A stretch of 64,000 nucleotides of DNA from NCBI RefSeq assembly GCF_003585765.1, contig NZ_CP021235.1, forward strand, positions 3,782,001 to 3,846,000. The letters run 5' to 3'. Below are positions 2,587 through 42,807 of this stretch, in pieces (position 1 is the stretch's first letter; each line of letters opens with the position of its first letter). Source of the stretch: Pontibacter actiniarum (GTDB lineage Bacteria; Bacteroidota; Bacteroidia; Cytophagales; Hymenobacteraceae). The notes beneath the pieces are model-generated. The model did not search any database, was not told the DNA's origin, and saw nothing but the letters and a program-made list of their open reading frames with translations. Made by a program: the position numbers and the translations under genes.

Positions 2587-5007
2587 CTAAAAAAGCAGGG
2601 TGACGGTTAGCTTGATCCGCAGGTTGTCACGGCTATCCTCCAGGCGGTACGCGCCGTAGCGGTAAAAAGCGCCCACCCCCACGCCGCTGAACGGAGAGCT
2701 AATGATATTCTGCAGCATGAGCCCCGACTCGAAGTACCCCTTGCGCATACTGCGGTAGCTGCCTTCCGGCAGAACCTGCAGCGGCTCCTCCAGGTCTCCG
2801 ATGCCTACATTGGTTACCGCCACCAGGTCGGGGGCAAAGAACCGCGTGTTAAGCAGGCGCTTCCCGAAGTTCTGAGAGAAGAACAGCGCCGCATACCTAT
2901 CGGAAAAGAACTCGTAAGGCTGCATGGTTTCGAAGCCCTCGCCGGTGTATACTTTGTAACTCGGGTTGTAGCTGCCGTACCCGTTGTAGCGCGTCACCAG
3001 CGGCGCATCGCCGGCGATCCACCCTCCGGCAAACAGGAGGCTTGTTTCACCGAAGGTCCGGTGGCGCAGGGTCTTCTCCAGGCGTACATCATACTTGTTG
3101 TAGCTGTAGTCTCCGCTTAAAAAGCCGTCGAGGCCGCGGGTGTACTGCAGCCACAGCACCGGGGCCTCCTCCTGCGGCATTGGCAGAAGGCGGTTAAACT
3201 GCTGCATGTACTTTTCGCCGGGGGCATAGCGCAGCGTCAGTACTGCCTCTGTCAGGTCAAAGGCAGGGAGGGGCTGCCCCTCCTGCTCCAGCAACGTTGG
3301 CCGGCGCTCCTCCTGCCGTAACTCGGCATTTGCCTGCAGGTAGCGCAGCACCCGCCCCCGCAGCGCCACGCTTTTGTGGGTGGTGTAGTCCATTTCCGGC
3401 AGCAGGGCCCGGCGCAGGTTACCGAGCACGCCGTAGTTCCGGTCCTGCGGCAAACGGCGGCCGCCAGTCTCGAGCAGGTCCTCGAAGTACACGGCTTTCA
3501 ACTGCAGCTCACGCGGCTGGTAAAGTATAACCGAGGCATCGGCGCCGTACTTGGCTTGCTTGTCTTTCAGGCCGTAGCCCCAGTACCCGCCCACCTTAAA
3601 GCGCTCAGAGAAACGGGCGTTGGTGTGGGCGCCCAGCCCCAGCCGCACCCCCTCAAAGTTACTCAGGCGAAACAGGCGGCCCAGGTCCAGGCTAAGGGGG
3701 CCAACCGGCAGCTGCTTGCTCATCAGGTACTCCAGCACGCGGATGGTACGGTCCAGCTTTTGCGCGTGGCCCACGCTGTCGAGGCGCTCGTAGGTGCGCT
3801 GCTCCAGCTGTGTCAGCGAGTCTGGCCGGTAGGCCTGGAAAAAGCTGTCGGGCTGCCGGTTGGCGTTGGGCGTCTGCTTCAGGGCTATGGCACCGAAGTC
3901 GGAGCGGCGCAGGTCCGGGTTTAGGTTGATGTTGGTGATGTAGGTGCGCAGGCGGGCGTAGGGCTGGTGCCCGTTCAAGCTTACCTGCGGAACCGTCAGC
4001 TCCACGTCCAGCTCCGTCGGGAACCAGGCCTGCCGGTCCCCCACCCGCTCATACTGCTGCTGTAGCCTGATGTTGCGCTTATCATCGTCTCCCGCCGATT
4101 GGGCCAGCACGTTCTGCACCGCCCAACCGTCGCTGTTGATGTAGAGCAGCCCTTCCAGCCCCTCAAAGTTCTTCCCCTCCTCCGGCCGGAAAGAAATCAC
4201 GAACACCGTATCCCGCCCCTGCACCAGCTGCTCCTGCAGCACAAAATCATACTTGCGCGTGCTGCCCGGGCTGATGGGGCTCAGGTAGCGCTTGCCGAAG
4301 AAAACCGGCAGGTCATCGTACACAGAGAAATCGCGAGCCTCGGCGGCCACTACGCCAAAGCTCGGCTGCTGCAGCCCCGACACACGTGTGGCCAGGATGG
4401 TCTCTTTGGTAAGGTTCGGCTGCAAAAAGGCGTAGTCGGTAACGCTCTCCAGCAGGAACAGGTGCTGCTTCCGGAGCAGGCTGCGCATTCGCAGGTACGC
4501 AGAGTCCCTGGGCGAAAGCTGCAGTGTGTCGCGCAGCTCCAGCTCCCCCACATCGGTGGCGGTAAGTATAAATTTATTGTAGGTGCGGTAAGTATAGCTG
4601 TTGAGGTGCTGCAGGCGGTTCCGCTCCCGGTTTTCCGTGGCCTTCCGGATGATGCGGTGCGCCGGGTTCTCCCCTGTGCCCAACACAATCACCTCACGAA
4701 GCTGTGCCGCCGTGGGCTGCAGCTGCACGTGTATATCCTGCACCGAGTCCGGGTAAACCACGTGCGGCCTGTAGCCCACATAGCTAAAGCGAAGGCTGCG
4801 GATCGGCTGCTGGTGGCGCAGGCGGTACTCGCCCTCCAGATTGGTGGTTGTCCCGGCTTCCCCCTCATTGGCTACAATGCTCACAAACGGAAGCCGCTCC
4901 CCCGTGGCGGCATCGCGCACAGTGCCCTGCACCTGCCGCGGCTGTGCCAGTACGACCCAGGAGTGCAGGCACAAGTATAAAAACAAGAGGTGGCGAAAGT
5001 ACGGCAT
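2587..5007 (-). CDS. CarboxypepD_reg-like / DUF5686 outer-membrane protein
   Basis: An 806-residue exported protein. Residues 1-21 form a signal peptide ending near VLAQ. Residues about 25-110 are a carboxypeptidase-regulatory-like beta sandwich (VQGTVRDAATGERLPFVSI, GEYRL, FSYVGYRP). The remainder is DUF5686, predicted to be an outer-membrane beta barrel that ends in the aromatic-terminated strand LRIKLTVTLLF. Such proteins are common in Bacteroidota and resemble TonB-dependent receptors without the plug domain; their function is unknown. The ATG at 5007 is the only start that precedes the signal peptide. It lies 64 nt downstream of the PAP2 gene on the same strand and could be co-transcribed. 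Confidence 0.85.
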   Translation of the reverse strand: MPYFRHLLFLYLCLHSWVVLAQPRQVQGTVRDAATGERLPFVSIVANEGEAGTTTNLEGEYRLRHQQPIRSLRFSYVGYRPHVVYPDSVQDIHVQLQPTAAQLREVIVLGTGENPAHRIIRKATENRERNRLQHLNSYTYRTYNKFILTATDVGELELRDTLQLSPRDSAYLRMRSLLRKQHLFLLESVTDYAFLQPNLTKETILATRVSGLQQPSFGVVAAEARDFSVYDDLPVFFGKRYLSPISPGSTRKYDFVLQEQLVQGRDTVFVISFRPEEGKNFEGLEGLLYINSDGWAVQNVLAQSAGDDDKRNIRLQQQYERVGDRQAWFPTELDVELTVPQVSLNGHQPYARLRTYITNINLNPDLRRSDFGAIALKQTPNANRQPDSFFQAYRPDSLTQLEQRTYERLDSVGHAQKLDRTIRVLEYLMSKQLPVGPLSLDLGRLFRLSNFEGVRLGLGAHTNARFSERFKVGGYWGYGLKDKQAKYGADASVILYQPRELQLKAVYFEDLLETGGRRLPQDRNYGVLGNLRRALLPEMDYTTHKSVALRGRVLRYLQANAELRQEERRPTLLEQEGQPLPAFDLTEAVLTLRYAPGEKYMQQFNRLLPMPQEEAPVLWLQYTRGLDGFLSGDYSYNKYDVRLEKTLRHRTFGETSLLFAGGWIAGDAPLVTRYNGYGSYNPSYKVYTGEGFETMQPYEFFSDRYAALFFSQNFGKRLLNTRFFAPDLVAVTNVGIGDLEEPLQVLPEGSYRSMRKGYFESGLMLQNIISSPFSGVGVGAFYRYGAYRLEDSRDNLRIKLTVTLLF

Positions 5008-9461: not shown

Positions 9462-11168
9462 TTATTTCATGTATACTTGTAAAGGTTCGCCCACGCTGCC
9501 GTTGGGCTCCTGAATGTACAGCCAGTAAGCGATAGTGGCGGCAATATCAGACACCTCGGCTTCAGCGCTGCTTTCCCCCTGCGGCACATTCCAACCGTAC
9601 CAGACGAGCGGCACGTGCGTATCGTAGTTTGCGTATGAGCCGTGTGTGGAGCCTGTGTTTCCGTACCCTTCAAACCAGGCCGGCTCCAGCACCAGTATAA
9701 CGTCTCCGGAGCGTTTGGCACTGTAGCCGTTCTCTACGCGCGACATCATTCCTTTTTCCCAGTTGGTGCGCTGCAGGGCAGTGGCTGTTACGGTTTTCAT
9801 CACGCCGTTCAGCCCCTGCAAATAAGCTGCCACCTGCTGCTGCACCTCTTCCAGGTTCAGCTTTTTGCCTGCTATCAGCTCATGGTTCAGGTACACCTGC
9901 TGATTGCTGTAGCGCTGCACCCAATTGCCTTTGCCGTACTGCCTGGTCATAAAGCCGCTCAGCGAGTCGCGCACCGTCTTGGAGAAGCTGAGCCCGGTCG
10001 GCACTTTCATTTCTTCCAAAAAGGCGGGCACGTGCGCCCCGCCGTGGTCGGCCGTCAGGAAGAAGAGCACTTCTCCTTTGCCAACCTCGTTTTCGATTTG
10101 GCTGATCAGTTCCGCCATCTCCCGATCGAGGCGCAGAAACACGTCCTCTGCCTCAACGGAGTTAGGGCCGAAGGTGTGGCCTACGTAATCTGTCGAAGAG
10201 AAGCTAACCGTCAGGAAGTCGGTGATGTCGTCTTTCCCAAGCTCCTCACCACGCAGTGCCGCCAAGGCAAAGTCTTTGGTGATGGTGTTGCCTGCCGGTA
10301 TGGAGCGAATCAGCTCATATTCCTCCCCGCGAAGCGCCGGAATGTTGTGCGGGAACACCGGCTTCTCTTCATTCTGCAGCGTTCCTTCCCACGGCACATC
10401 GTCCGCAGTGCTTTCCGTGTACTGCTCAATCGGCAGCAGTGTTTCCCAAGGCTGGCTAAGGTACTGGTCTGCCAGCTTTTTATCGTTAAACTCCCGTACC
10501 CAGGCCGGCAGATCCTCGCGGTAGAACGTACTGGTGATCCAGTTGCCGCTCGGCGAGTCGAACCAGTAGGCGGCATTCGCCAAGTGGCCTGCCGGAAGTA
10601 TGGAGCCCCTGTCTTTCAGCGCCACCCCGATTACCTTGGCTCCTTTGTTGGTTGCCAGTCGCAGTTCGTCGGTGATGGTGGTCGTTTTCAGGTTGGCCGG
10701 CGACATCTGACCCGCCGTGGAGCTGCTCCCCACCGTTTGCACGGTATTGTCTTCTACACAATATACAACTTTATTCTGATCGCGGTCATACCAGCTGTTG
10801 CCGATGATGCCGTTAATGGCCGGCACGCTTCCGGTATAGATAGAAGCATGGCCAGGCGCCGTGTAGGTCGGCACGTAGTTGTAGTGCGTGTTTCTAAAGC
10901 TAAACCCTTCTGACAGCAGCTTCTTGAAGCCATCGTTGCCGTACTTGCTCCAGTAGCGGTACAGGTAGTCGTAGCGCATTTGGTCTACCACAATGCCTAC
11001 AACCAGCTTTGGCCGCTGAAACACCGGTTGGTTATTTGTGGCTGCAGCCGCCGGTGTTTTTGTAGAGGAGGAGTTTTGGGTGGCTCCGGCACAGGCGCCT
11101 AACAGCAGCAAGCTTGCCGCCGCCGTTTTTGCCCATGCTACATGCTTCAAAAGGGTCATATATTTCAT
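9462..11168 (-). CDS. PafA-type alkaline phosphatase, probable lipoprotein
   Basis: A 568-residue alkaline phosphatase superfamily enzyme. A lipobox LLGAC places lipidated Cys26 after a short signal sequence. The catalytic nucleophile is probably Thr103 in TYTAPGHAS. Asn124 in GNSWYD and Lys185/Arg187 in KDRGS match the Asn, Lys and Arg that define the phosphate-irrepressible monoesterase PafA of Flavobacteriia. The metal ligands VVDQMRYD, DYVGHTFGP and TADHGGAHVP are present. It probably releases phosphate from organic phosphomonoesters in the periplasm or at the outer membrane. It sits upstream of ppa on the same strand, so the two form a small phosphate-salvage pair. Confidence 0.9.
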   Translation of the reverse strand: MKYMTLLKHVAWAKTAAASLLLLGACAGATQNSSSTKTPAAAATNNQPVFQRPKLVVGIVVDQMRYDYLYRYWSKYGNDGFKKLLSEGFSFRNTHYNYVPTYTAPGHASIYTGSVPAINGIIGNSWYDRDQNKVVYCVEDNTVQTVGSSSTAGQMSPANLKTTTITDELRLATNKGAKVIGVALKDRGSILPAGHLANAAYWFDSPSGNWITSTFYREDLPAWVREFNDKKLADQYLSQPWETLLPIEQYTESTADDVPWEGTLQNEEKPVFPHNIPALRGEEYELIRSIPAGNTITKDFALAALRGEELGKDDITDFLTVSFSSTDYVGHTFGPNSVEAEDVFLRLDREMAELISQIENEVGKGEVLFFLTADHGGAHVPAFLEEMKVPTGLSFSKTVRDSLSGFMTRQYGKGNWVQRYSNQQVYLNHELIAGKKLNLEEVQQQVAAYLQGLNGVMKTVTATALQRTNWEKGMMSRVENGYSAKRSGDVILVLEPAWFEGYGNTGSTHGSYANYDTHVPLVWYGWNVPQGESSAEAEVSDIAATIAYWLYIQEPNGSVGEPLQVYMK

Positions 11169-11189
11169 GTTACTGTAGTTCGCTTGCTA

Positions 11190-11197
11190 CAAATATA
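11190..11197 (-). promoter_or_regulatory. -7 promoter element for the alkaline phosphatase gene
   Basis: On the minus strand this reads TATATTTG, a perfect match to the Bacteroidota -7 element TAnnTTTG, 22 nt before the ATG. No clear -33 TTTG is seen at the usual spacing. Confidence 0.45.
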
Positions 11198-11283
11198 ACA
11201 AGTACACTTTACTAATGCCGTTTGTGTTGCACGATAACCTGTTCTTTACCTTTTAATAACCTACTGGCGAACAGGCAGCCGTA

Positions 11284-11322
11284 AAAAACAAGCAGCGCCC
11301 ACCTGTGGTGATGGGCGCTGCT
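11284..11322 (-). terminator. Terminator of the ATP synthase operon
   Basis: A perfect 11-bp stem (11291-11301 with 11312-11322, AGCAGCGCCCA) is followed on the minus strand by TTGTTTTTTAC. It lies about 20 nt after the atpG stop and separates the operon from the phosphatase gene. Confidence 0.88.
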
Positions 11323-11341
11323 CCTGTGCTTTTCTTTCTTG

Positions 11342-12232
11342 TTATTTTGCAGCCAAAGCTTCGGCACCACCCACGATTTCGAGGATCTCTTTGGTGATGG
11401 CCGCCTGACGCGTCCTGTTGTAGGTCAGTTTCAGCTGCTTCAGTAGCTCGCCGGCGTTTTCCGTCGCTTTGTCCATGGCGGTCATTCGGGCTCCATGCTC
11501 AGAGGCATTGGACTCCAGCACGGCCTTGTACACCTGGATCTTCAGCGATTTCGGGATCAGCTCCTCAATGATCTGCTCCTTCGACGGCTCAAAGGTGTAG
11601 TCGATCAGCAGCGTAGCCGCGTCAACTTCCTCGGCCGGCTTCTCCTCAATAGGCAGGAACTGCTCCTGGCGCACGATCTGCGTAGCCACGTTTTTGAACT
11701 CGTTGTACACAATGTCCACCTGGTCAAACTCGCCTGCCACAAAACCGGCCATGGCACGCTCTGCAGCGGCACGCACCGTGTCGAAAGACAGGTTAGCGAA
11801 GGAGTTGCTGTAGTCGCCGATTACGTTGAAGCCTCTCTTGCGGAAGGCATCAAAGCCCTTGCGGCCGATCGTCAGGATGGTTACCCTCCCGGCATCGTAC
11901 TGGCTCTTATACTTGCCATTGACCAACGCCATCACCCCTTTTACAATGTTGGAGTTAAAGGCACCGGCCAGACCACGGTCAGAGGTTATGGCAATAAGTA
12001 AGACGCTGTTTACTTCCCGCTTCTCGGCGTACACGTTTGTTACAGCACCCTCTGCCATAGAAGACAGGTTTGTCAGGATGCCGCTCAGGCGCTGGGCGTA
12101 AGGGCGCATACGCATGATGCTATCCTGCGCGCGTCTTAGCTTGGCAGCCGACACCATTTTCATGGCTTTCGTGATTTGCTGCGTCGATGAGATCGATGTA
12201 ATGCGGCCTCTAACCTCTTTTAAACTTGCCAT
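11342..12232 (-). CDS. atpG: ATP synthase F1 subunit gamma
   Basis: A 296-residue central-stalk subunit of F1. The N-terminal helix (MASLKEVRGRITSISSTQQITKAMKMVSAAKL) and the C-terminal helix (MTAMDKATENAGELLKQLKLTYNRTRQAAITKEI) form the coiled-coil rotor shaft, and the C-terminal pattern is the family signature. It transmits rotation from the c-ring to the alpha/beta catalytic head. It is the last gene of the minus-strand operon, 72 nt after atpA and just before a strong terminator. The beta and epsilon genes (atpD, atpC) are not in this window, consistent with a split arrangement known in Bacteroidota. Confidence 0.97.
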   Translation of the reverse strand: MASLKEVRGRITSISSTQQITKAMKMVSAAKLRRAQDSIMRMRPYAQRLSGILTNLSSMAEGAVTNVYAEKREVNSVLLIAITSDRGLAGAFNSNIVKGVMALVNGKYKSQYDAGRVTILTIGRKGFDAFRKRGFNVIGDYSNSFANLSFDTVRAAAERAMAGFVAGEFDQVDIVYNEFKNVATQIVRQEQFLPIEEKPAEEVDAATLLIDYTFEPSKEQIIEELIPKSLKIQVYKAVLESNASEHGARMTAMDKATENAGELLKQLKLTYNRTRQAAITKEILEIVGGAEALAAK

Positions 12233-36555: not shown

Positions 36556-38373
36556 TTACTCCTGCGTCATCAGGTCGAAGCTGCGCTTCACGAAGCTGGT
36601 CAGAGCGGCACCGGATAGCATGTTCTGCGACAGCAGGGCAAGGTCGAAAGCCTGGCGCGCCAGCTTGGCCTTCTCCTCTGCCTTGAGCACGCGCTGGTTC
36701 AGCGGGTGGTTCGCGTTAACGGTCACGTTGTACATGTCTGGCATATCGCCCATAAACATCATACCGCCACCGCCTGCACGGTTCATGTCCTTCATGCGGC
36801 GCATAAACTCCGGCAGTGTGATTACCACCGGCGCGTCGTCCGGCGACATCGGCGCTACCTCTACCGTCATGTTCTTGTTGTCAATCGCCTGCTCGTACAC
36901 GCCTTTCAGGTCTTCTTTCTCGGTATCGGACAGTACACTTTCCTTCACCTCATCCTTCTCCACCAGCTTGTCGATGGTTTCGGAGTCAACGCGCTTGAGG
37001 GTAGTTTTCTCCAGCTTTTGCTCCAGCAGGCCGATAAAGTGGCTGTCGATTACAGAATCCAGCTTCAGCACATCGTAGCCGCGGTTCTGTGCCGCCTCCA
37101 CAAAGGCGTGCTGCTTCTCGGCATCCGATGTATACAGCAGCACCAGCTGCTCGTTTTTGTTCGTTTGGTTGGCCTGCACCAGCGCTTTGTACTCTTCTAT
37201 TGTGTAGTACTTGCCCTCGGTGCTTTGCAGCAGCACGAAGTCCTTTGCTTTTTCGTAGAACTTGTCGTCGCTCAGCATGCCGTACTTCACAAACACGCTG
37301 ATATCGTCCCAGTTCTTCTCAAAGGTTTCGCGGTCTTTTCTGAAGATCTCGCTCAGCTTGTCGGCTACTTTTTTGGTGATGTAGGTGTTGATCTTCTTCA
37401 CGCTGGAGTCGGCCTGCAGGAAGGAGCGGCTCACGTTCAGCGGAATGTCCGGCGAATCGATTACACCGTGCAGCAGCATCAGGAACTCCGGCACCACGTC
37501 TTTTACCTCATCGGTAATAAACACCTGGCGAGAGTACAGCTGAATCTTATTGCGCTGTACTTCGAAATCGTTCTTGAGCTTAGGGAAGTACAGGATACCT
37601 GTCAGGTTAAACGGATAGTCTACGTTCAGGTGAATCCAGAACAGCGGCGGCTCCGCCATCGGGTACAGCTCTTTGTAAAACTCCTTATAGTCTTCTTCTT
37701 TCAGGTCGGCTGGCTGCTTTGTCCAGATCGGGTTCGGGTTGTTGATCACCTCGCCCTCAAACTCTACCGCCACCGGCAGGAACTTGCAGTACTTATCAAG
37801 TATAGTACGGATGCGTACCGGCTCCAGGAACTCCTCTGAGTCTTCTGCAACATGTAGCACGACATCTGTACCGTGCTCCGCTTTCTGCGCATCTGTAATC
37901 TCAAACTCTGTGCTACCGTCGCAAGTCCAGCGGGCAGGCTCTGCTCCCTCTTTGTAAGACTTGGTGATGATATCAACACGTGATGCCACCATAAAAGCAG
38001 AGTAGAAGCCCAAACCGAACTGACCGATGATCTGGTCTTTGTCGCCGGAGTCTTTAAAGCGCTCCACAAACTCCGTGGCACCCGAAAAAGCGATCTGGTT
38101 GATGTACTTTTTAATCTCCTCGGCCGTCATACCGATACCGTTGTCGGAGATGGTGATGGTTTTAGCGTCTTTATCTACCGCTACTTTTACCTTCAGCTCG
38201 CCAAGGTCACCGGTAAACTCGCCAATAGAAGACAAACGCTTCATTTTCTGCGTGGCGTCCACGGCGTTACTTACCAACTCGCGCAGGAAGATCTCGTGGT
38301 CGGAGTACAGGAACTTCTTGATAATCGGGAAAATATTCTCGGTGTGGATGGAGATATTACCTCTTTCTTCCAT
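36556..38373 (-). CDS. htpG: Molecular chaperone HtpG (Hsp90)
   Basis: A 605-residue Hsp90. The N-terminal GHKL ATPase domain includes FLRELVSNAVDAT, ISDNGIGMT, SGATEFVERF and IGQFGLGFYSAFMVA. The middle domain follows with RGVIDSPDIPLNVSRSFLQ-type sequence (here LLHGVIDSPDIPLNVSRSFLQ in part) and the C-terminal dimerisation domain ends MRRMKDMNRAGGGGMMFMG and LLSQNMLSG. It assists folding and remodelling of cytosolic client proteins with ATP. Its ATG at 38373 is the conserved start. A long structured 3' region follows. Confidence 0.98.
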   Translation of the reverse strand: MEERGNISIHTENIFPIIKKFLYSDHEIFLRELVSNAVDATQKMKRLSSIGEFTGDLGELKVKVAVDKDAKTITISDNGIGMTAEEIKKYINQIAFSGATEFVERFKDSGDKDQIIGQFGLGFYSAFMVASRVDIITKSYKEGAEPARWTCDGSTEFEITDAQKAEHGTDVVLHVAEDSEEFLEPVRIRTILDKYCKFLPVAVEFEGEVINNPNPIWTKQPADLKEEDYKEFYKELYPMAEPPLFWIHLNVDYPFNLTGILYFPKLKNDFEVQRNKIQLYSRQVFITDEVKDVVPEFLMLLHGVIDSPDIPLNVSRSFLQADSSVKKINTYITKKVADKLSEIFRKDRETFEKNWDDISVFVKYGMLSDDKFYEKAKDFVLLQSTEGKYYTIEEYKALVQANQTNKNEQLVLLYTSDAEKQHAFVEAAQNRGYDVLKLDSVIDSHFIGLLEQKLEKTTLKRVDSETIDKLVEKDEVKESVLSDTEKEDLKGVYEQAIDNKNMTVEVAPMSPDDAPVVITLPEFMRRMKDMNRAGGGGMMFMGDMPDMYNVTVNANHPLNQRVLKAEEKAKLARQAFDLALLSQNMLSGAALTSFVKRSFDLMTQE

Positions 38374-38527
38374 TGTCTATACTTTATATATGTTAGATTG
38401 ATCTGTTACAGAAATGCTGTACCAGGCACACTTTCAAATCCTGTTCCAGAGGCGGCAGTTGTGACAGCTTGTCAGACAGAAACTGAAAATACTTCCGCTT
38501 GCGACAGAAAAAGAAGCGGCAGCTAAA

Positions 38528-38557
38528 TGCAACATTGTGGAATTTAACATATATTTG
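38528..38557 (+). promoter_or_regulatory. Promoter and possible metalloregulator site for the His-rich protein / TonB receptor locus
   Basis: TATATTTG at 38550-38557 matches the -7 element, 20 nt before the GTG start. Immediately upstream is an imperfect dyad, TGCAACA-T-TGTGGAA (38528-38542, 5 of 7 positions symmetric), placed where a repressor would block polymerase. A Fur/Zur-type site is possible but the match is weak. Confidence 0.45.
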
Positions 38558-38577
38558 TTTATGTTCGTGTTCTGAAG

Positions 38578-38901
38578 GTGCACCGCTTTATCCAACATAT
38601 CGCCCTGGTCCTGCTGCTGCTGTTTTGCAGAGCGATGGTACCGGACGCCCTGATTCAGGAGCTGCACGCCCACACCCACACCGTCCATACGGAGCACACG
38701 GACCCGCACAAGGCCCAGGTGGGCATGAAGCACAAGCACTGCCAGGTGGAGGATGTGTTCAGCACCCCCTACCAGGGCACAGCGCTTTCCATCGATTTTA
38801 AACCCATCACCCACACGGCTGTATATGCTGCCGCCTATACCTACGGCTGGCACGGCAGCACCCCTACGCTATACTTCCTTCGCGGCCCTCCTGCGGCCTA
38901 G
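38578..38901 (+). CDS. Small exported His-rich protein, probably metal-binding
   Basis: A 107-residue protein from a GTG start at 38578. A signal-like hydrophobic stretch (IALVLLLLFCRAMV) is followed by a His-rich segment between residues about 29 and 56 (ELHAHTHTVHTEHTDPH, then KHKHCQVED) with about ten His and one Cys. I do not know a named family. It precedes a TonB-dependent receptor and a lipoprotein on the same strand. Its role as a periplasmic metal-binding or metal-sensing partner (zinc or copper) is inferred from composition and neighbours. Confidence 0.6.
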   Translation: MHRFIQHIALVLLLLFCRAMVPDALIQELHAHTHTVHTEHTDPHKAQVGMKHKHCQVEDVFSTPYQGTALSIDFKPITHTAVYAAAYTYGWHGSTPTLYFLRGPPAA

Positions 38902-39083
38902 TTTTTAGCACGCCCGCCCCCGTTTGCTGCGCTTGGTTGAAGTGCGGCAATGGCAGCGGCACACCTTTTTTGTAATAAGCCCTCGGCTCGCGCTTGCCCC
39001 TGGCACAGCGGCTGCCTCCACAGGGCCTCGTGGCTATTGCATTAGTATAGCCACTGCTAAACCATTGCTGAAAACCAGAAGAA

Positions 39084-41462
39084 GTGTTATTAACCAAACA
39101 ACTCCGGAAGAATATCCTTTTGGCACTGGTGCTGTTAAGCACACAGGCGCCGCAACTGCAGGCACAATCGCTTCCGGCACCGGCAGATGCCGTTCAGGAC
39201 TGCGGCCTCACCGTTTCAGGCAAAGTACTGGACCACGACACGCGCGAGGCGTTGGTGGGGGCTACCGTGTACATTCCTGAACTGGACAGGGCCACCGTGT
39301 CAGACGCCTACGGCAACTATCATTTTCACCAGCTTTGCCAGGGTGCCTATACCCTGCGGGTAACCTACGTGGGCTACGACAGAGAGGAGTTTCCCGTGAA
39401 ACTATCCGGCTCTACGTCTAAAAACCTAGCGCTGCACTCCGATGCCCAGACACTGCACACGGTAGAGGTTACCGGCGCTCACCTTAAAGAGCAGGCGCAG
39501 TCGCAGCAAACGCTGGAGGGGCGCGAGCTGGAGCAAACCCGCGGGCTGGCCCTGGCCGAGACGCTGAAAGGCATTGCCGGCGTCACTACGCTGCAAACCG
39601 GCCCAACTATCTCCAAGCCTGTCATCCACGGCCTGCACAGCAACCGCGTGCTGCTGCTCAACAACGGTGTGCGGCAGGAGGGGCAACAGTGGGGCTCGGA
39701 GCATGCGCCCGAGATAGACCCATTTGTGGCTTCCGAGATGCGTGTGATCAAAGGGGCGGCCGGCGTGCGCTATGGCGCCGATGCTATAGGAGGTGTGGTG
39801 ATTGTGGAGCCGAAGCCGCTGCGAAGCGTACCCGGCATCAGCGGCGACCTGCACCTGCTGGGCAGCACCAACAACCGCCAACTGGCTACCTCGGCCATGC
39901 TGGAGGGCAATTTTGAGAAGGTGCCGCCGCTAAGCTGGCGCCTGCAGGGCACGCTGCGCAAGGCCGGCAACGCCAGAACACCGGATTACTACCTGGAGAA
40001 CACCGGGCTGGAGGAGCAGAACTTCTCTGCTGCGCTGGGTTACCGAAAGGAAAAGTACGGGGTGGAGCTGTTCTTCAGCCAGTTCAACACAAAGCTCGGC
40101 ATCCTGAAGGAGTCGCATATTGGCAACGTAACGGACCTGCTCTACGCTATTGAGCGCGGCAGGCCCAGCAATGCCGACAACGCAGCATTCACCTACGACA
40201 TCGGACGGCCTTACCAGGATGTACAGCACAACCTGCTGAAAGCAAAAGGCTATTGGGAGCTGGGCGAAGCGGGCAAGCTGGAGTTTGTGTACGGCTGGCA
40301 GCGCAACGTGCGCGAGGAGTACGATGTGCGCCGCCGCAGCAGCTCCCTGCCCTCGCTGCAGCTCACTCTTAACACCCACACAACCGAGGTTGTGTTTCAG
40401 CACAAGCCGCTGGGCCGCTTCTCCGGCTCTGTAGGCCTCAACACCATCTACCAGCACAACACGTACCAGTACAGCGATTTTCTGCCATACTTTACAGGCA
40501 CCACCTTTGGCGCCTTCGCCATTGAGCGCTGGCAAAAAGGCAAGCTGCAACTGGAGGCAGGCCTGCGCTACGACTACAAGCACCTGCTGGTGAAAAGGCT
40601 GGAGAATAACCGGGACCTGCAAAAGCCGGAGTTTGACTTTAACAATGTGTCCGGCACGCTGGGGGCCATGTATGATGTCGGCTACCACCTTACCTTTGGG
40701 TTGAGCGCCACTTCGGCCTGGCGCGCGCCGGGGGCCAACGAACTCTTCAGCAATGGTGTGCATCACAGCGCCGCCACCTTTGAGGTAGGCGACCCGACGC
40801 TGGAGTCGGAGCAGGCTTATAATTTTGAGCTGTCGGCGGATTACTACAATAACGCCCGCTTAAACGGCAAGCTGAGCCTGTACCACAACTACATCCATAA
40901 CTTTGTGTACCTGGCGCCGCAGCCGGAGCCGGTGCTCACGATTCGCGGGGCCTTTCCGGCCTTTAAGTACACCCAGGCAAACGCCACCCTTACGGGAGCA
41001 GACCTCAGCCTGGACTATACTTTCACCCCTAAGTTGAAGCTGGAGTCCAAGACTTCGCTACTCTACGCCCGTAACCTGGATACCGACGATGACCTGATCT
41101 ACATGCCTGCCAACCGCTTCGACAACAGCCTGAGCTATGAGTTTGGGCAGCTTGGCGGTGGCAACAGCTTCTACGACACCTATATTTCTGTTGGAGGTGT
41201 ATATGTAGCAGAGCAGGAACGTATACCGGGTGGGCTGGAGCAGGATTTTGCCCCGGCGCCAGGCGCGTACTTTTTGGTTAATGCCGAAGCCGGAACAACC
41301 CTGCAGCTAGGGAAGCAAACCATTGAGGTGGGCATTACCGGCAAGAACTTACTCAACACCGTGTACCGGGAGTATCTGAACAAGCTACGCTACTATGCTG
41401 ATGAGCCTGGGCGCATGCTGATGTTCCGTATCCGGGTGCCGCTCGATTTTACCAAATCGTAA
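39084..41462 (+). CDS. TonB-dependent outer-membrane receptor with CarboxypepD_reg domain
   Basis: A 792-residue receptor. A GTG start at 39084 and a signal peptide ending near QLQAQ are followed by a carboxypeptidase-regulatory-like domain (CGLTVSGKVLDHDTREALVGATVYIPE). Next come a TonB-box-like LHTVEVTG and a plug domain (GLALAETLKGIAGVTTLQTG, VIHGLHSNRVLLLNNGVRQEGQQWG, GAAGVRYGADAIGGVVIVE). The beta barrel ends with the C-terminal strand MLMFRIRVPLDF. It imports a scarce ligand using TonB energy. The His-rich upstream protein and downstream lipoprotein suggest a metal or metallophore, in the style of ZnuD, but the substrate is an inference. Confidence 0.92.
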   Translation: MLLTKQLRKNILLALVLLSTQAPQLQAQSLPAPADAVQDCGLTVSGKVLDHDTREALVGATVYIPELDRATVSDAYGNYHFHQLCQGAYTLRVTYVGYDREEFPVKLSGSTSKNLALHSDAQTLHTVEVTGAHLKEQAQSQQTLEGRELEQTRGLALAETLKGIAGVTTLQTGPTISKPVIHGLHSNRVLLLNNGVRQEGQQWGSEHAPEIDPFVASEMRVIKGAAGVRYGADAIGGVVIVEPKPLRSVPGISGDLHLLGSTNNRQLATSAMLEGNFEKVPPLSWRLQGTLRKAGNARTPDYYLENTGLEEQNFSAALGYRKEKYGVELFFSQFNTKLGILKESHIGNVTDLLYAIERGRPSNADNAAFTYDIGRPYQDVQHNLLKAKGYWELGEAGKLEFVYGWQRNVREEYDVRRRSSSLPSLQLTLNTHTTEVVFQHKPLGRFSGSVGLNTIYQHNTYQYSDFLPYFTGTTFGAFAIERWQKGKLQLEAGLRYDYKHLLVKRLENNRDLQKPEFDFNNVSGTLGAMYDVGYHLTFGLSATSAWRAPGANELFSNGVHHSAATFEVGDPTLESEQAYNFELSADYYNNARLNGKLSLYHNYIHNFVYLAPQPEPVLTIRGAFPAFKYTQANATLTGADLSLDYTFTPKLKLESKTSLLYARNLDTDDDLIYMPANRFDNSLSYEFGQLGGGNSFYDTYISVGGVYVAEQERIPGGLEQDFAPAPGAYFLVNAEAGTTLQLGKQTIEVGITGKNLLNTVYREYLNKLRYYADEPGRMLMFRIRVPLDFTKS

Positions 41463-41526
41463 CCCATTATTTAGTATCATTTTTAAATAAACTTCGTATT
41501 GTTGTACATTGTCAAATACCTATATC

Positions 41527-42096
41527 ATGAAAAAACTATTTAGACCTTATCTCACAGCGTTTTTATTAGGCTCACTCTTGTTCACAGCAGCCTGTGGCGA
41601 TGATAACGATGATCCGGATCCGATTGAAGAGGGTGAGGTAATTACCAGCATGACCATTGTGCTGGAGCCGAGCTCTACCATTAAAGGGGTAGACAGAGCA
41701 GAGGCGACATACTCTGACCCTGACGGGCCCGGAGGGAACGCCCCGGTAGTTACCACTTTGAATTTAAAGCCGAATGTTATCTATAACGCAACGGTTACTT
41801 TTGCAGACAATAACGGTGATATCACTAACGAAATCGAAGCAGAAGGTACCGACCATGCGGTTATTTTTGAACCAACCCCGGAGTCGCTACTTTCCGTTCA
41901 GCGAACTGATATGGATGCGAATAACTTTCCTATTGGCTTAGAAGCGACCATTACAACCGGTGAGCCGACAACGGGCACCAACAACAACCTTAGGGTTACT
42001 TTGATGCACCAGCCCGGCATTAAAACTGCCACTTCCGGTGTAAGCGTTGGCGAAACAGATATCCAGGCTCTTTTCCCTGTTGTTATTGCACAGTAA
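41527..42096 (+). CDS. Lipoprotein associated with the TonB-dependent receptor
   Basis: About 189 residues from the ATG at 41527, which starts a lipoprotein signal (FLLGSLLFTAAC). A short acidic linker (DDNDDPDPIEEGE) precedes an all-beta domain ending HQPGIKTATSGVSVGETDIQALFPV. Similar lipoproteins with this tail often lie next to TonB-dependent receptors in Bacteroidota. They are likely surface or periplasmic substrate-capture partners; no activity is known to me. It begins 64 nt after the receptor stop and ends at a strong terminator. Confidence 0.78.
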   Translation: MKKLFRPYLTAFLLGSLLFTAACGDDNDDPDPIEEGEVITSMTIVLEPSSTIKGVDRAEATYSDPDGPGGNAPVVTTLNLKPNVIYNATVTFADNNGDITNEIEAEGTDHAVIFEPTPESLLSVQRTDMDANNFPIGLEATITTGEPTTGTNNNLRVTLMHQPGIKTATSGVSVGETDIQALFPVVIAQ

Positions 42097-42114
42097 GGAG
42101 CTACTTTAACAATA

Positions 42115-42152
42115 CAAAAAAGAGGTGCGGCCGTAGCTGCACCTCTTTTTTT
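42115..42152. terminator. Bidirectional terminator after the receptor/lipoprotein locus
   Basis: AGAGGTGC (42121-42128) pairs with GCACCTCT (42139-42146), with an A-run before and a T-run after. It serves the plus-strand lipoprotein and the convergent minus-strand gene ending at 42169. Confidence 0.9.
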
Positions 42153-42168: not shown

Positions 42169-42807
42169 TTATCCTTTTCCCTGAGCCTGATTTTTTGCCC
42201 CCTCCACGGCTTTGGCTATACGGCGGGCCCTCGTCTCCGGCTTCTTTGCCTCCAGCACCGCCACCACATACTCTTTCCGGTGCGTGAAAGCCATACGCTC
42301 AAAAGCACCCAGCATGCCTTCCTGCACCAGGGCCTCCTCCAGGTCACCGGGTATGGCCACTGCTTTTGTCCTGCGGTCGATGCCTGGCTTATCCACTCCG
42401 AAGGCGGAACTTTGCGGGCGCTCCGACTGGTGCCGGAACCGCAGCGCCGACCACACCTCGTCCACCGCCACCTGCCGCACTACCTCAAAACCCAGCGCCT
42501 TTATACTTTGCCAGCCTTTGTCGCGGCTGAGGTCTGTTGTAACACCGGAGGATTGCTTGGGGTAGGCGATCCACAGCATTCCTTTGGGCTGAAGCAGCGC
42601 CACCGCCTGCGGGCCAAGCTCGTTGAGCTGCGCTGCATGCTGCACAAACAGCAGCACGGTGTGGCAAGCCCCTGCACCTGGCGCTTCTTCGTCGGCCCTG
42701 AAAGCGCAGCCCTCCTGCGCCAGTACCTGCGCCACTGCTTCCGGAGCGTTCAGCAGTACCAGGCTGTCGCCTTGCTTTACCTGTAGTTTCTTTCTCAGCT
42801 CTGCCAT
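42169..42807 (-). CDS. DUF3052-like / YdeI (OmdA) domain protein
   Basis: A 212-residue cytosolic protein in two halves. Residues 1-125 look like the DUF3052 fold, a Rossmann-like domain (KQGDSLVLLNAPEAV, GMLWIAYPKQSSGVTTDLSRDKGWQ). Residues about 145-210 match the bacteriocin-protection / YdeI-OmdA helical domain (IPGDLEEALVQEGMLGAFERMAFTHRKEYV, ARRIAKAVEGA). Such fusions occur in Bacteroidota; the biochemical role is unknown. Confidence 0.75.
   Translation of the reverse strand: MAELRKKLQVKQGDSLVLLNAPEAVAQVLAQEGCAFRADEEAPGAGACHTVLLFVQHAAQLNELGPQAVALLQPKGMLWIAYPKQSSGVTTDLSRDKGWQSIKALGFEVVRQVAVDEVWSALRFRHQSERPQSSAFGVDKPGIDRRTKAVAIPGDLEEALVQEGMLGAFERMAFTHRKEYVVAVLEAKKPETRARRIAKAVEGAKNQAQGKG

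Follow-up and report, generated by a model that had tools for sequence, protein, structure and literature searches.

What does a small histidine-rich open reading frame (ORF) do at the head of a TonB-dependent receptor operon in Pontibacter actiniarum? The question was raised by a stretch of 64,000 nucleotides (nt) of its genome (GCF_003585765.1, contig NZ_CP021235.1, positions 3,782,001 to 3,846,000), hereafter the window, in which a 107-residue His-rich ORF, a TonB-dependent receptor gene and a lipoprotein gene lie in this order on the plus strand and are followed by a terminator. The small protein had been taken, in an earlier sequence-only reading, for an exported metal-binding part of an uptake system. 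Our analysis points instead to a regulatory upstream ORF (uORF) of the CruR/CutF (DUF2946-like) type, whose nascent chain would act as a metal sensor switching the receptor genes, with zinc as the probable metal; we consider this reading likely. A regulatory uORF was preferred over an exported binding protein because of an invariant RGPP motif, a fixed spacing, a low-confidence structure model and kinship with DUF2946/CruR, and the same four points disfavoured the earlier interpretation. The features on which the argument turns are as follows (labels beginning with L, G and C are our handles for loci, genomes and contigs).

38578-38901, plus strand: small His-rich ORF, 107 residues, the proposed metal-sensing arrest-peptide uORF; GTG start at 38578, stop codon at 38899-38901
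38662-38742, plus strand: codons for residues 29-55 (LHAHTHT...KHKHC), the proposed metal site; H30, H32, H34, H52, H54 and C55 invariant
38881-38892, plus strand: codons of R102-G103-P104-P105, the proposed ribosome-arrest motif; R, P and P invariant, G at 0.99 in 106 homologues

Fixed points in the small protein

The length of 107 residues given by the sequence-only reading was confirmed. The protein has a hydrophobic N-terminal segment, the motifs LHxHxHT (residues 29-35) and KHxHC (51-55), and a C-terminal LRGPP (101-105) that was absent from that reading. About ten histidines and one cysteine had been claimed within 28 residues; the protein contains 12 His in total, of which the richest 28-residue stretch holds eight, and one of its two Cys (17 and 55) lies within the His-rich stretch, as claimed.

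LHxHxHT, HxHC and RxPP were each present in all 106 distinct homologues. RxPP was found within the last 20 residues as RGPP in 104 members and as RAPP in one, and the remaining member carried RGPP farther in. The fully conserved columns were L13, R18, P22, H30, H32, H34, H52, H54, C55, R102, P104 and P105. From HxHC to the arginine there were 46 residues in 63 members, 47 in 35, 48 in five and 49 in three, and the spacing between the two His motifs varied from 13 to 21. CXXC occurred in none of the 106 homologues, and the fourth place of the HxHC-x-x motif was occupied by E in 53, D in 44 and A in nine, thus by an acidic residue in 97. Residues 67-100 formed the least conserved segment, 34 residues without a gap, in which the frequency of the commonest residue averaged 0.39 compared with 0.98 for LRGPP (37 Pontibacter sequences). 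Judged by its identity to the window's protein, which was 43-82% over 36 loci when that of HtpG was 82-91%, the small protein evolves fast except at a few fixed points. A linker that is constant in length but free in sequence, joining the metal motif to RGPP, would meet the needs of a nascent chain inside the ribosomal tunnel.

The structure model of the small protein showed one hydrophobic helix at residues 3-27, with the remainder at low confidence. A periplasmic or membrane-anchored metal-binding chaperone or scavenger, handing metal to or from the receptor, would agree with the hydrophobic N-terminus, the 12 His and two Cys and the conservation of the gene ahead of the receptor. We nevertheless regard such a role as quite unlikely, since it leaves the invariant near-terminal RGPP, the fixed spacing over a variable but gap-free segment and the DUF2946 kinship described below unexplained; the model has no fold beyond the single helix, and the CruR and CutF proteins are described as undetected in vivo (PMC9426467, PMC9973294). 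It is very improbable that RGPP causes no arrest and serves as a structural or proteolytic tag in a decoy gene or pseudogene, as the strict retention of both metal motifs and RxPP in 106 of 106 homologues argues against decay, and RGPP is described as the most excluded four-residue motif over many phyla (PMC12992588).

Kinship with DUF2946-type uORFs

The sequence-only reading could name no family for the small protein, which held true for the curated libraries but not for profile comparison, where a remote kinship with DUF2946/CruR appeared. When compared by hhalign with 13 DUF2946-type uORFs that had been chosen by their RxPP tails, two of them (L132 and L133) being hits of the family's own profile and so biasing the test towards a match, the small-protein family scored 55.3; the scores of 100 column shuffles did not exceed 18.8, and the reversed alignment gave 14.0. 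Removal of L132 and L133 left a score of 43.6 against a shuffled maximum of 20.9. With just the four rows above the DUF2946 cut-off the score was 42.8, with residues 5-107 aligned, a value without a shuffle control. The rows came from 32 inspected loci (3 from the family profile and 29 of 30 from the DUF2946 profile, L164 being left out), 21 of which had an ORF ending in [R/K]xPP and 11 did not. Nineteen of the 21 were extracted (L147 and L160 were left out), and alignment A2 comprised 13 of these 19, without L134, L138, L141, L142, L143 and L145. Over the phylum, the family profile matched 7 of 395 genomes, four of them within the host family, and the DUF2946 profile matched 29 of 395, five above cut-off. 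By profile comparison, the small protein shares ancestry with the DUF2946/CruR family.

The position of the metal motif agreed with this kinship. In 14 CXXC relatives, the first Cys stood 45-50 and the second 42-47 residues ahead of RxPP; in the window, RGPP stands 46 residues from C55 and 43 from E58, which occupies the place of the second Cys. Because the distance from C55 falls within the range of the first Cys in the CXXC relatives, C55 is most likely equivalent to that first Cys, the second having been changed to E, D or A.

The CXXC type was also found at the head of the same kind of operon. Three loci in Bacteroidota of the same class, in families other than that of the host, carried a CXXC-type RGPP uORF immediately in front of a receptor of the same class. 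In L203 (CELC) it was followed by a ZnuD-like receptor (E 6.0e-122) and a lipoprotein of the same family (E 2.7e-13), and in L206 (CSIC) likewise by a ZnuD-like receptor (E 1.8e-108) and a same-family lipoprotein (E 5.1e-15). In L201/L137 the uORF scored above the DUF2946 cut-off and preceded a receptor (E 4.4e-133) with the same plug motif, EGQQWGMEHAPEIDPF; the lipoprotein of this locus had no recognisable kinship. As L203 and L206 combine a CXXC uORF with the receptor and the lipoprotein, the three-gene unit exists with either a CXXC or an HxHC sensor motif. This shared unit is the strongest argument that the His-rich gene would do the job of a DUF2946-type uORF.

Proposed mechanism

In the proposed mechanism, the hydrophobic N-terminus would target the nascent small protein to the membrane during its synthesis. 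Once RGPP has been reached, the segment LHxHxHT...HxHC-x-x-E would lie outside the ribosome, approximately 47-50 residues from the peptidyl-transferase centre. When no metal is bound, the ribosome would stall on RGPP, and the stall would permit expression of the ZnuD-like receptor and the lipoprotein. Binding of metal, most likely zinc, by the nascent chain would relieve the stall and cut downstream expression, either because Rho terminates transcription, as for CruR, or, in some members of the genus, through a stem between sequences just after the uORF stop and just before the receptor start. What the sequences themselves show is the set of motifs, how invariant they are and at what distances they stand, the order of the genes and the homology to DUF2946-type uORFs; that the ribosome arrests, which metal acts, in which direction expression responds and how the RNA takes part are inferred.

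A more specific picture is put forward tentatively, and with less assurance than the regulatory uORF itself: in the host family, a CXXC copper-type sensor may have been rebuilt with His, Cys and carboxylate ligands into a zinc-sensing nascent peptide, whose RGPP arrest, together with the stem in part of the genus, would determine how much of a ZnuD-like importer is made. Sensors of this general kind are known for copper; the novelty lies in the type of sensor and in its partner. The literature search found no report of a His-type, zinc-linked variant, with the limit that the His-motif clusters of PMC9973294 (Fig. S6), in a supplement that the search did not cover, may include it.

The receptor and the probable metal

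39084-41462, plus strand: TonB-dependent receptor, ZnuD-like, 792 residues; PF00593 113.1 bits, PF07715 64.8 bits

The zinc or copper uptake system proposed by the sequence-only reading was supported as a metal-uptake operon, with ZnuD as the best solved relative of the receptor, but a haem model scored as high as the zinc one. In the PDB comparison, ZnuD (E 2.8e-20) was followed by OprC (2.6e-7) and by haem receptors (2.8e-6 to 6.7e-6). Among the NCBIfam models, ZnuD (NF038289) gave 134.2 bits, below its cut-off of 950, and TonB-hemin (TIGR01785) tied with it at 134 bits, below its cut-off of 316.85; the TonB-copper model gave 63.7 bits. The ZnuD ligands D99, H100 and H499 align with E206, H207 and H560 of the receptor. 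None of these three residues varied among 37 Pontibacter receptors or among 12 added ZnuD-type receptors of other loci; three receptors of another type lacked them. ZnuD E340 aligns with the variable R417, and an invariant E412, a possible ligand, lies five residues off across a gap. The published zinc ligands are H100, E340 and H499, plus a residue printed as D90 (PMC4557270), here numbered D99. In L208, of genus g5, the gene after the receptor encodes a cation-efflux protein that has a zinc-transporter dimerisation domain. From these comparisons, zinc is the favoured metal, with copper and haem as less likely candidates.

Copper, alone or with zinc, might be sensed by the same uORF mechanism, the receptor then importing a copper complex. 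HxH and HxHC are able to bind Cu, the characterised CruR and CutF are copper sensors, the small protein shows weak LpqS and DUF2946 similarity, and OprC is the second-best PDB relative. Copper is nonetheless judged unlikely: ZnuD is well ahead of OprC in the PDB and of the TonB-copper model in NCBIfam, by the E values and bit scores given above, its ligands align with invariant residues, and the small protein has lost CXXC throughout its 106 homologues in favour of a mostly acidic fourth place. The receptor segment aligned with the CxxxM plug motif of OprC, a motif described in PMC11213822 (Bizionia copper), is GQQWGSEHAP, without Cys or Met. As far as the account in PMC12992588 goes, Bacteroidota are without uORFs before Cu-related genes.

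Import of haem, or of some other metallophore, in place of free zinc, with the uORF sensing a non-zinc ligand, is a more doubtful proposition still. The tie between TIGR01785 and ZnuD and the weak structural matches to haem receptors speak for it; ZnuD, however, was far ahead in the PDB, the two tied scores were both below their cut-offs, and three of the four ZnuD ligand positions were invariant.

As a separate observation, a DUF2946-type RAPP uORF in L139/L207 (G329) precedes a GTPase resembling the COG0523/CobW zinc-chaperone family (motifs assigned by eye), a possible zinc link.

From the uORF to the receptor

38902-38909, plus strand: 5' arm TTTTTAGC of the proposed long-range RNA stem, directly after the uORF stop codon
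39067-39074, plus strand: 3' arm GCTGAAAA of the proposed stem, -17 to -10 from the receptor start codon

The gap between the small ORF and the receptor gene measures 182 nt in the window and 123-237 nt in 37 Pontibacter loci, a range that rests on the receptor starts used in that alignment. A position-locked stem of at least 6 pairs, with 3' bases beginning 13-20 nt before the receptor start, was found in 14 of the 37 loci compared with 3.35% of shuffles; for this test the receptor start was shifted 18 nt downstream to a GTG in L168, L170 and L171. In 15 loci, including the broken L181, with arms anchored by hand, 102 of 105 pairs stand, with changes on both sides at two positions. Other tests of the gap RNA gave little: no Rfam match at E<=1, a thermodynamic fold of z -1.73 with 13 of 200 shuffles equally stable, duplex energies between the gap ends of -11.4 against -10.4 for shuffles, and a best-stem score without position lock of 12.5 against 10.6-11.6 in controls. 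Among these tests the position-locked stem alone stands out. The stem is taken as a lineage-specific element, and by analogy with CruR, Rho termination would be the default for loci without it.

Two other candidates for the RNA step were set aside. An intrinsic attenuator over the RGPP codons (hairpin 38880-38896 with a T-run) was not conserved, terminator-like sequences lying at scattered positions among the homologues. C outnumbered G over the final 150 nt of the small gene in 103 of 106 cases, compared with 81 for the first 90 nt beyond it and 82 inside the receptor gene; this bias, inflated by His, Pro and Thr codons, was not used as proof of Rho action.

Several results weigh against the regulatory uORF as proposed. 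The window's small protein had no counting Pfam or NCBIfam match and no DUF2946 (PF11162) match at E<=1. DUF2946 matched weakly in 3 of 32 family members (best E 0.0069), and the nearest NCBIfam model, the copper-annotated LpqS (NF052429), gave 11.3 bits and E 0.32 for the window protein at a cut-off of 35, matching 6 of 32 members with a best E of 0.0035. Outside the host family, significant family-profile matches were obtained in just 3 of 391 phylum genomes. As for the RNA step, the position-locked stem was absent from 23 of the 37 Pontibacter loci, its covariation was modest (27 of 5000 permutations as good, relatedness uncorrected), and terminator-like sequences after the uORF were present in 29 of 106 cases against 13.0 expected from shuffles and were not conserved. 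With a footprint size that we assume, the front edge of the stalled ribosome would reach just the start of the 5' arm. As for the metal, both characterised relatives sense copper, so that copper may be the metal here as well. The haem model ties with ZnuD for the receptor; ZnuD itself was formerly taken for a haem transporter (PMC4557270). In CutF, the response is described as opposite in direction, and the motif alone gave no stalled form (PMC9973294).

The promoter side

38525-38545, strand not assigned: block AAATGCAACATTGTGGAATTT with imperfect dyad symmetry, perhaps an operator or an element of the -33 region; conserved at 17 or more of 22 positions in 15 of 37 Pontibacter loci
38550-38557, plus strand: -7-like element TATATTTG, separated by 4 nt from the end of the dyad

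The sequence-only reading had placed a dyad directly before the -7 element. The position was borne out, the block ending 4 nt before TATATTTG, which matches TAnnTTTG, the Bacteroidetes -7 consensus. Eight of ten symmetric pairs are present, and 116 of 1000 shuffles of the region held an equally good 21-mer dyad, so that the symmetry by itself is not beyond chance. In orthologous loci, where a check of the dyad had been called for, 15 of 37 kept the block and the rest fell below 17 of 22 positions.

Control exerted chiefly at the promoter, where a Fur-family protein or another regulator would act on the dyad and the uORF would be secondary, agrees with the loosely defined -7 element that lies 3-4 nt past the 22nd base of the block in all but one of the 15 loci where the block is kept (7 nt in L199), and with the four Fur-family genes of the host genome. 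A chaperone-linked regulator is a further option, given the single-mismatch copy of the core before an HSP20 gene described below and the nearby htpG. Primary control at the promoter is, however, rather unlikely. The 21-mer had no second copy in its own genome at 3 mismatches, and a relaxed scan gave 11 sites against 5 for the reversed control; those outside long ORFs were L053, L059, L061 (the window locus) and perhaps L060, and none was seen before a metal gene, the check that the sequence-only reading had suggested. In 50 genomes of the genus, 33 hits with up to 2 mismatches were obtained in 26 genomes, 22 of them at the small-gene locus: 17 of 17 hits with 0-1 mismatch and 5 of 16 with 2 mismatches lay just upstream of the small gene, and the 11 off-locus hits, all with 2 mismatches, compared with 17 hits of the reversed control pattern. 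The right arm of the block was altered in L168, L170 and L171. The block is thus locus-specific and weak as a dyad, and its reading as a metal-regulon motif (Zur or Fur site) was rejected on the unique 21-mer, the relaxed scan and the genus scan.

Some further observations concern this region. The core TGCAACANTGTTGCA (window 38528-38542) has its sole 1-mismatch copy in the same genome at L053 1501-1515, approximately 150 nt before an HSP20 gene, and htpG starts approximately 150 nt to the other side of the window's copy, which may reflect a chaperone-linked motif or chance. A second small dyad, AACATA-N8-TATGTT (window 38546-38565), straddles the -7-like element. Two of the Fur-family proteins, encoded at G000:C2:77758-78036 and G000:C1:4336441-4336737, appeared by eye to be divergent, with HxH and Cys motifs, and are candidate zinc or heavy-metal regulators; the former gene sits downstream of an apparent efflux-system adaptor gene, also identified by eye.

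Layout of the locus

36556-38373, minus strand: htpG, flanking the 5' side of the His-rich ORF
41527-42096, plus strand: lipoprotein, 189 residues, predicted mostly beta; predicted local distance difference test (pLDDT) 88.5
42116-42151, plus strand: intrinsic terminator of the putative operon; hairpin -24.5 kcal/mol, z -6.84, 0 of 200 shuffles as stable
42169-42807, minus strand: OmdA-type gene, flanking the 3' side of the terminator

The arrangement described by the sequence-only reading, with the three genes on one strand and a single terminator, was found as claimed on the plus strand of this 4.97-Mb, two-contig genome, and the suggested neighbourhood analysis of the small gene bore it out across the genus. 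The order of htpG on the minus strand followed by the small, receptor and lipoprotein genes on the plus strand was kept in all 36 named Pontibacter loci, the small ORF in each of them standing first in the putative metal operon and well apart from the gene behind it, and the OmdA gene came next in 35. Every one of the 200 genomes sampled from the host family, Hymenobacteraceae, had the small gene. The locus is therefore real and conserved.

The lipobox Cys23 of the lipoprotein was invariant in alignments A3 and A6. The protein had no Pfam or NCBIfam match above cut-off and no confident fold match in Foldseek (best E 0.014); in VIA the best match (Z 9.3) was part of a nuclear pore chain, followed by 8.5 and 7.7, and no function was assigned. 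Two copies of the lipoprotein gene stand behind the receptor gene in some loci (L038, L040).

Additional small genes were seen elsewhere. L205 (G572) has two different RxPP-ending small ORFs in an apparent single operon, the first (1416-1751) ahead of the TonB receptor and the second (4221-4556) ahead of the lipoprotein gene that comes next. The small gene also has second copies elsewhere, which stand before genes for a receptor of another type, an ATP-binding cassette (ABC) protein and a DUF3526 ABC-2 permease (L042 5983-6297), and before an AstE/AspA-type gene (L051 8998-9348, L044 3870-4205). Beside the small-gene cluster of L044, genes for PepSY_TM and DUF4374 proteins occur with a further receptor (9658-12189); a PepSY_TM gene likewise stands third in the CruR operon.

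Comparison with known systems

In the literature found, metal sensing by a nascent chain is worked out for copper only. The occurrence of the same receptor-lipoprotein operon with CXXC in some Bacteroidota and HxHC in others may thus offer a natural experiment on the choice of metal by a ribosome-bound peptide. Small "hypothetical" genes ahead of Bacteroidota TonB receptors may be control elements rather than parts of the transporter, which would alter how they are annotated and tested.

The closest characterised parallel is CruR of Bordetella pertussis, a 145-residue DUF2946 uORF before a TonB receptor in cruR-bfrG/crtA-bp2921, in which 45 residues separate a CXXC motif from RAPP, RAPP stands three residues short of the C-terminus and 162 bp lie between the uORF and the receptor; copper is described as relieving the arrest, upon which Rho terminates transcription ahead of the receptor (PMC9426467; for CrtA see also PMC12914433 and PMC10957091). 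The spacing taken for the DUF2946/CruR family was 45 after CXXC in CruR, varying by 1-2 residues across the family. Like CruR, the window's ORF is the first in a TonB-receptor operon and has a hydrophobic N-terminus, a metal motif approximately 45 residues from RxPP (46 from C55), a terminal motif near the end (two residues follow RGPP) and a long gap (182 nt). Unlike CruR, it has HxHC-x-x-[E/D/A] and LHxHxHT in place of CXXC, RGPP in place of RAPP and no DUF2946 profile match at the E<=1 threshold, and its partners are a ZnuD-like receptor and a lipoprotein in place of the PepSY_TM protein.

Among the RAPP-like motifs compared in PMC12992588, RGPP gave the most robust arrest and is strongly avoided in proteomes, and uORFs with RGPP or RAPP are described there as enriched before TonB receptors and present across Gram-negative phyla. 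The window protein resembles these arrest peptides (ApdA, ApdP and the Streptomyces set) in being a small localised protein with a C-terminal RGPP before a metal-related gene; the tested set, as far as seen in that report, has no Bacteroidota TonB-linked member. With the CutF-like proteins, those of Rhodobacter capsulatus cutFOG and a published list of 29 clusters that includes many Bacteroidota and two His-only clusters (PMC9973294), it shares a small, putatively exported protein, a metal motif, a C-terminal proline motif and a metal gene downstream. CutF differs from the present proposal in that it is described as copper-responsive and as acting on a stem-loop that hides the start of cutO.

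The receptor resembles ZnuD of Neisseria (4RDR) in plug and barrel over two stretches, with E206, H207 and H560 at the places of D99, H100 and H499. It differs in scoring far under the cut-off of the ZnuD model, in the variable residue at the place of E340 and in an extra CarboxypepD_reg-like domain at its N-terminus. A link of such genes to zinc is also described for the Zur regulon of Caulobacter, which includes the receptor gene znuK with the znuGHI ABC-2 transporter and a DUF2946 gene, CC2720, in a Zur-activated zinc efflux operon (PMC4176598). Caulobacter belongs to a different phylum, and the likeness is one of gene layout: a DUF2946-type ORF and TonB receptors are linked to zinc there, as is proposed here, and the arrangement of receptor, ABC and ABC-2 permease genes recurs in L042.

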